This document shows, piece after piece, positions 15,031 through 34,889 of a stretch of 34,889 nucleotides of DNA; the stretch's first letter is position 1, and each line of letters starts with the position of its first letter. This DNA is from Phycisphaerales bacterium (lineage in GTDB: Bacteria > Bacteroidota > Bacteroidia > Chitinophagales > Chitinophagaceae): positions 1 through 34,889 of the forward strand of contig JASGCP010000009.1 in the NCBI GenBank assembly GCA_030053995.1, given 5' to 3'. The position numbers and the translations under genes are program-made. A model generated the notes under the pieces. That model was not told the DNA's origin. It worked only from the letters and a program-made list of their open reading frames with translations, and made no database searches.

Positions 15031-15068
15031 AATTTGTCCAGTTTATTATCAAATAAACTGGACAAATT
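15031..15068. repeat. Perfect inverted repeat (17-bp arms, 4-nt spacer), operator-like
   Basis: AATTTGTCCAGTTTATT-ATCA-AATAAACTGGACAAATT. Confidence 0.8.
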
Positions 15069-15322: not shown

Positions 15323-15610
15323 TTATTCATTTGGACTAAAAACTATTTGCCTGTTTTTAATACCAAATTCATTCAGTCTTTTTCTGCGTGTTTCTTTTTC
15401 ATTAGGGGTATGATATGACAAAAGCCAAACAGCACTATTACTGATTGATATCAAAATTTCATTAAAATATTTTTTATCTATGTCTGCAAGCGAATGTCCA
15501 AGAATAAAAACTTTGCGAATGGATTTCAAGGAATTGAAAAAGACTTTGTTTTTTTCAATAAGCGAAGATGTAGCCTTGAACGATTTTGAGAAATATTGAA
15601 TTAATTGGTT
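15323..15610 (-). pseudogene. C-terminal remnant of an AbiH-like abortive infection protein
   Basis: Open frame ...SLIEKNKVFFNSLKSIRKVFILGHSLADIDKKYFNEILISISNSAVWLLSYHTPNEKETRRKRLNEFGI...; VFILGHSLADIDKKYF and W-LSYH match the conserved AbiH C-terminus. The N-terminal part is missing; the frame meets a TAG exactly at the end of the adjacent repeat element. Confidence 0.55.
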
Positions 15611-16017
15611 CTATGACGAAAAGGGTGGGGGGGTAGTTTACCTTAATTTCATATTGATTACCATTAAGCATATATCCGGAATGCCCTCAGAGGAAGGGCG
15701 TTACAAAACAAGGCGAACGAAGTGGCTATCGAAAATGGGGCGAGGCGGATATATCAAAGAAAGCGAGTGGTAGCGATGCTAAAATTGTAAAGAAGCAAGC
15801 AAGTTATATCCAATCGCTTTCTATATATCCGATGCCATTCATTTTCGATAACGAAGAGAGCCGTAGTTTTGCAGCCCTTACTCTGCAGGCTTGATTTTTT
15901 TTTGTTTCTTTCTTTTGTATCAAGACAAAAGAAAGAAAAATGACATGATAAAATACCAAATTATCATTTTAAAAGTCATCAAACTTCTAACATTTTACCC
16001 ACCCTTTTCGTCATAGA
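15610..16017. mobile_element. Non-coding MITE-like element with 20-bp terminal inverted repeats and internal long imperfect palindrome (complete copy)
   Basis: Left end TCTATGACGAAAAGGGTGGG (15610-15629) is the exact reverse complement of the right end (15998-16017); no long ORF inside; right end repeated at 34792-34889. Confidence 0.75.
15905..15938. terminator. Hairpin with 14-bp perfect arms, possible bidirectional terminator inside the element
   Basis: TTTCTTTCTTTTGT-ATCAAG-ACAAAAGAAAGAAA. Confidence 0.45.
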
Positions 16018-16101
16018 GCTTAAATTTTTTACTCAAAACTGTTCCTTTTCAACTACTAAATTATATCTTAACTATCTGTCCGAAAAATGCACCCCACCAT
16101 G

Positions 16102-34631: not shown

Positions 34632-34791
34632 GTAGCTTTGTAAAATTATTAATCGATGTTTGCCAGTCGCACTAATAGAATAATAGATGTGGATAGAGTC
34701 ATAATTATAAGTATAATATGATGAAATTTTTAAGTAAAGTACTTAATTTAAAATTTAATTTTTTAAATCATAATTTTAAAAATAGCCAGGC

Positions 34792-34889
34792 TCTATGACG
34801 AAAAGGGCCGGTAAAATGTTAGAAGTTTGATGACTTTTAAAATGATAATTTGGTATTTTATAAGGTCATTTTTCTTTCTTTTGTCTTGA
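34792..34889. mobile_element. Second copy (one end only, truncated by window edge) of the MITE-like element, inverted relative to copy 1
   Basis: TCTATGACGAAAAGGG..GGTAAAATGTTAGAAGTTTGATGACTTTTAAAATGATAATTTGGTATTTTAT... matches the reverse complement of the 3' ~98 nt of 15610-16017 with about 4 mismatches. Confidence 0.8.

Follow-up and report, generated by a model that had tools for sequence, protein, structure and literature searches.

The 414 bp sequence at positions 15607–16020 is very probably a non-autonomous ISL3-type MITE that is moved by an ISL3-family transposase acting in trans and that inserts into AT-rich intergenic DNA with an 8 bp duplication of the target. It is short, has no transposase gene and is bounded by terminal inverted repeats with fixed boundaries; target-site duplication is found at the level of the family. 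The window, i.e., the whole stretch of DNA that was analysed (34,889 nt), is a complete contig (C156) of a 2.28 Mb metagenome-assembled genome, which has 203 contigs and is approximately 90% complete. The features in the window are the following.

15607..16020, plus strand: MITE copy, 414 bp, boundaries set by comparing copies; it matches itself at 100%, and dozens of related sequences are present in the genome
15607..15630, plus strand: left terminal inverted repeat, GGTTCTATGACGAAAAGGGTGGGG; the family consensus is GGCTCTATGACGAAATGAGTGGGT
15995..16020, minus strand: right terminal inverted repeat, which reads AGCTCTATGACGAAAAGGGTGGGTAA on the minus strand
15727..15850, no strand assigned: internal imperfect palindrome with arms at 15727–15754 and 15823–15850 that are 75% complementary
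15890..15938, minus strand: internal pseudoknot-capable motif with a 14 bp stem, CTTGAT loop, linker and ATCAAG
34789..34889, minus strand: another copy of the family, represented by its right end alone and ending at the contig end
15326..15610, minus strand: AbiH C-terminal fragment (PF14253 positions 193–260), a neighbour outside the element

The element and its copies

The exact 20 bp inverted arms at positions 15610–15629 and 15998–16017 are where an earlier note on this DNA had placed them, but the edges it gave for a 408 bp element (15610–16017) are too narrow. A comparison of copies shows that the true ends are at positions 15607 (GGT) and 16020 (GCT), each 3 bp further out. The family consensus ends are GGC...GCC and the termini are approximately 26 nt in length. 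The terminal motif is present three times in the window, the third time with two mismatches, vs. no occurrence in 100 shuffled sequences. The additional copy of one end that had been seen elsewhere in the window is indeed there, and represents the right end of another copy (positions 34789–34889). Any ORF inside the element is shorter than 80 aa, in agreement with the earlier description of it as non-coding.

BLAST against the host genome reveals at least 40 sizeable copies with identities of 79–100%. The right-end pattern has 57 exact matches in the genome (none for the reversed-pattern control), and a 15 nt terminus with up to one mismatch has 335 occurrences (0–1 for the reversed-pattern control), equal to about 170 elements when all subfamilies are counted. 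Approximately two thirds of the ends in the sampled contigs belong to the subfamily of the window copy; the remaining ends have the terminus in common with it but belong to elements with other interiors. Many copies have internal deletions. Pairwise identity among full-length copies is only 77–95%, and the burst is thus not very recent. The MITE architecture proposed in the earlier note is borne out in that the element is multi-copy and its copies are not alike beyond the termini; the note had named a single-copy element, or similarity extending well past the inverted repeats, as evidence to the contrary, and neither is found.

The exact 17 nt terminus is present 76 times in the window's genome and once in each of two other genomes, with no second end nearby, among 398 genomes of the order that were searched. 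A terminus search of GTDB shows 16 sites, where the only real copies are on two short contigs assigned to MAGs of Limnohabitans and Alphaproteobacteria (L138, positions 1–560, and L145, positions 2250–2578). These contigs are probably misbinned pieces of a related Bacteroidetes-type genome. Plasmid and phage collections have no match to the element. As a separate observation, small ORFs with a common leader-like start (e.g., LGYILSRNDIK..KGG) are present in L138 (2431–2727 and 5879–6208) and L066 (2491–2844 and 4825–5127), and these resemble precursors of double-glycine-leader peptides.

Insertion sites and the ISL3 link

Perfect 8 bp direct repeats are found at the boundary in 6 of 38 end-pairs, where shuffled flank pairings give a mean of 0.18 and a maximum of 2 over 2000 trials; perfect repeats of 9–12 bp are absent from the 38. 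Two of the six perfect duplications are of low complexity. Most end-pairs are without a clean duplication, and one pairing of 1,902 bp probably joins two ends that do not belong together. The window copy scores 3/8, i.e., it has no duplication. The earlier note saw no clear target-site duplication, which holds for the window copy; in the family as a whole such duplications do occur. Of 106 termini, only 2 fall within ORFs, in sampled DNA that consists to 75% of ORFs of 110 aa or more. A terminus is present within 450 bp of 45 of the 70 contig ends sampled vs. 6.4% of internal windows; neither fraction is an unbiased genome average, because the sampled contigs were partly chosen for carrying copies. 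Empty sites, sought as joined flanks within the sampled DNA, were not found.

Immediately left of the window copy is an AbiH-type abortive-infection gene that lacks approximately its first 190 codons. The fragment aligns to PF14253 positions 193–260 (E = 1.7e-14) and starts at the edge of the element, and the missing N-terminal part is absent from the far side of the element and from the rest of the genome. The search for this other AbiH half, as a sign of recombination between copies, thus gave no match. A deletion or rearrangement beside the element would be the simplest reading of both the missing duplication and the cut-off gene. The flanking deletion suggested in the earlier note is thus consistent with the state of the AbiH gene, although the event itself is a reconstruction: the window copy would have lost its target duplication after insertion, probably by a deletion or rearrangement that took the start of the AbiH gene as well. 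Between the AbiH fragment and a tRNA-Ser gene, positions 15031–15068 represent a perfect 17 bp inverted repeat with a 4 nt gap (AATTTGTCCAGTTTATT).

An intact ISL3 element of 1,288 bp is present in a genome of the same bacterial family (L176 in G305), with an exact 8 bp duplication, TCTTTTTG. Its 410 aa transposase is intact and scores 320 bits to NCBIfam NF033550 (cut-off 180); it is also far above the cut-off for PF01610. The termini of this element match the MITE termini at 24/26 and 20/26 positions, and among 539,000 background positions no other 26-mer has more than 17 matches. The interior is unrelated past the ends. Another element, from the same order (L194), ends in GGCTCTATGCTAAATCGTGTGGGTAA, is identical to the MITE at 20/26 and 19/26 positions and has an exact 8 bp duplication. 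The MITE family displays GG(C/T)TCT termini and 8 bp duplications as do intact ISL3 relatives. The earlier note offered a link of the GG(C/T)TCT ends to ISL3 as a guess, and it is upheld because the family has 8 bp duplications and an intact ISL3 of the same bacterial family has nearly identical termini.

The window's genome has ISL3 transposases (PF01610) as broken pieces only. No ISL3 transposase that is intact, or that has the MITE termini, was found in this approximately 90% complete genome, which breaks at repeats. A full-length insertion sequence with the same termini, which the earlier note proposed to look for, has a near match in a relative (L176), and none was recovered from the genome itself. 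One remnant group (P0001) has the ends GGYATTACTAAATTTYGTGTG by inspection. It was rejected as the driver of the MITE, since its ends differ and a P0001 fragment is inserted in a MITE copy. The second group has the termini GGCTAAATC...GAGGTGC, resembles L190 and L198 of relatives (loci L067 26–360, L190 1450–2925 and L198 847–2317) and is represented in the window's genome by decayed copies and non-coding derivatives. Neither of these resident groups with readable ends carries the MITE termini. A GTDB search with the remnant transposase gave no matches. Direct repeats of approximately 200 bp are found around an ISL3 transposase remnant in L068 (3041–3249 and 4083–4299).

In the proposed mechanism, an ISL3-family DDE transposase provided in trans would recognise and cut the terminal repeats of approximately 26 nt, and 8 bp of AT-rich intergenic target DNA would be duplicated on insertion. 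Amplification would have occurred while a matching ISL3 was active in the lineage. The resident ISL3 transposases are broken and their readable ends differ; the autonomous partner is therefore apparently lost, unassembled or unrecovered.

The missing partner also leaves room for mobilisation by another transposase family that makes 8 bp duplications, e.g., IS6, as such duplications are possible in other families and are not exclusive to ISL3. This is very unlikely, in that the termini are best matched by an ISL3 element from the same bacterial family and a search of the genome, which among the rival families covered IS6, shows that IS6-type transposases (PF13610) are absent. The fragmented assembly, with copies near so many of the sampled contig ends, could suggest that the repeat is an artefact of assembly or binning and that there is no real dispersed family. 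The chance of this is practically negligible: diverged full-length copies are found at different flanks with common boundaries, some with 8 bp duplications, and the element is present on two contigs filed under other assemblies.

Interior fold and hairpin motif

An origin other than transposition is suggested by the fold of the element, which is far more stable than that of shuffled sequences (z of approximately -10 as RNA and -9 as DNA), and by one internal hairpin that is nearly invariant among copies and is also found in other genera of the order. These properties would fit a repeat that has spread because of its function, either a conserved structured RNA or a regulatory sequence, in which the terminal repeats form the base of the stem. 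For the whole element, however, the consensus fold of 14 aligned copies reveals no covariation: only 2 of 99 pairs have two-sided changes and the covariation term is unfavourable. The fold is therefore read as inherited palindromy. Scans against Rfam, both for the element and for the motif loci in relatives, give sub-threshold matches only, many copies are internally deleted, and the 8 bp duplications point to transposition. A structured RNA dispersed for function is thus a highly improbable account of an element that is better explained as an ISL3-type MITE.

In other genera the internal hairpin has a perfect stem, a 6 nt loop and, a short distance downstream, the complement of the loop. The loop and its partner change in concert between genera, i.e., CTTGAT/ATCAAG, CTTGAC/GTCAAG, CTTGAA/TTCAAG and CTTGTT/AACAAG. 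The stem exceeds the linker by exactly 4 nt in 30 of 31 cases, and the A-run of the linker tracks the T-run of the stem. This putative second type of repeat would be an AT-rich hairpin of approximately 9–14 bp whose 6 nt loop could pair with 6 nt past an A-rich linker. Matches to the pattern number 62 in G032 and 20 in G056, with none in controls; related copies inflate these counts. In several genomes of the order the motif starts a genome-specific multi-copy repeat; loci are L037–L065 and L207–L256, in addition to positions 15890–15938 (minus strand) of the window. The motif is covered by no Rfam family and was not found in the literature, both of which are weak negatives. The MITE might possibly carry a second repeat, apparently undescribed, that forms a real pseudoknot or triple helix, as RNA or single-stranded DNA, with a function of its own in spread or expression, but this reading is tentative and on balance doubtful.

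Related MITEs and significance

The element is a new family of a known kind, because MITEs derived from ISL3 have been described previously. A 187 nt MITE of Microcystis aeruginosa PCC 7806 is attributed to ISL3 (PMC11448079). It is similar to the window MITE in its GGCTCT-starting termini, 8 nt direct repeats, stem-loop and terminal match to ISL3, but differs in that it has half the length and another interior, has intact matching ISL3 elements in the same genome and belongs to an unrelated phylum (PMC11448079). Methanosarcina acetivorans has a 179 bp MITE related to ISMac21 that is likewise assigned to ISL3, with inverted repeats of 22 nt; it is present in 6 copies in an archaeal host and its direct repeat is given as 7 bp (PMC3852290). 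The ISL3 element L176 has similar termini and an 8 bp duplication as well, but it encodes an intact transposase. Within the Bacteroidota, BrickBuilt and other MITEs of Porphyromonas gingivalis are also multi-copy and have termini that resemble resident insertion sequences (PMC4596501). They differ in having IS5-type termini, approximately 10–20 copies per genome, a number typical for bacteria, and no consistent 8 bp duplication (PMC4596501).

The family is notable for its unusually high load in a small genome with no recovered partner; the element type itself is known. That a copy is near most of the sampled contig ends shows that MITE repeats break assemblies in practice. If the hairpin motif is a true pseudoknot, it would represent a class of repeats that has gone unrecognised in this bacterial order. 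With 335 termini in 2.3 Mb and no intact transposase recovered, the lineage may show a MITE burst that has outlived its source.
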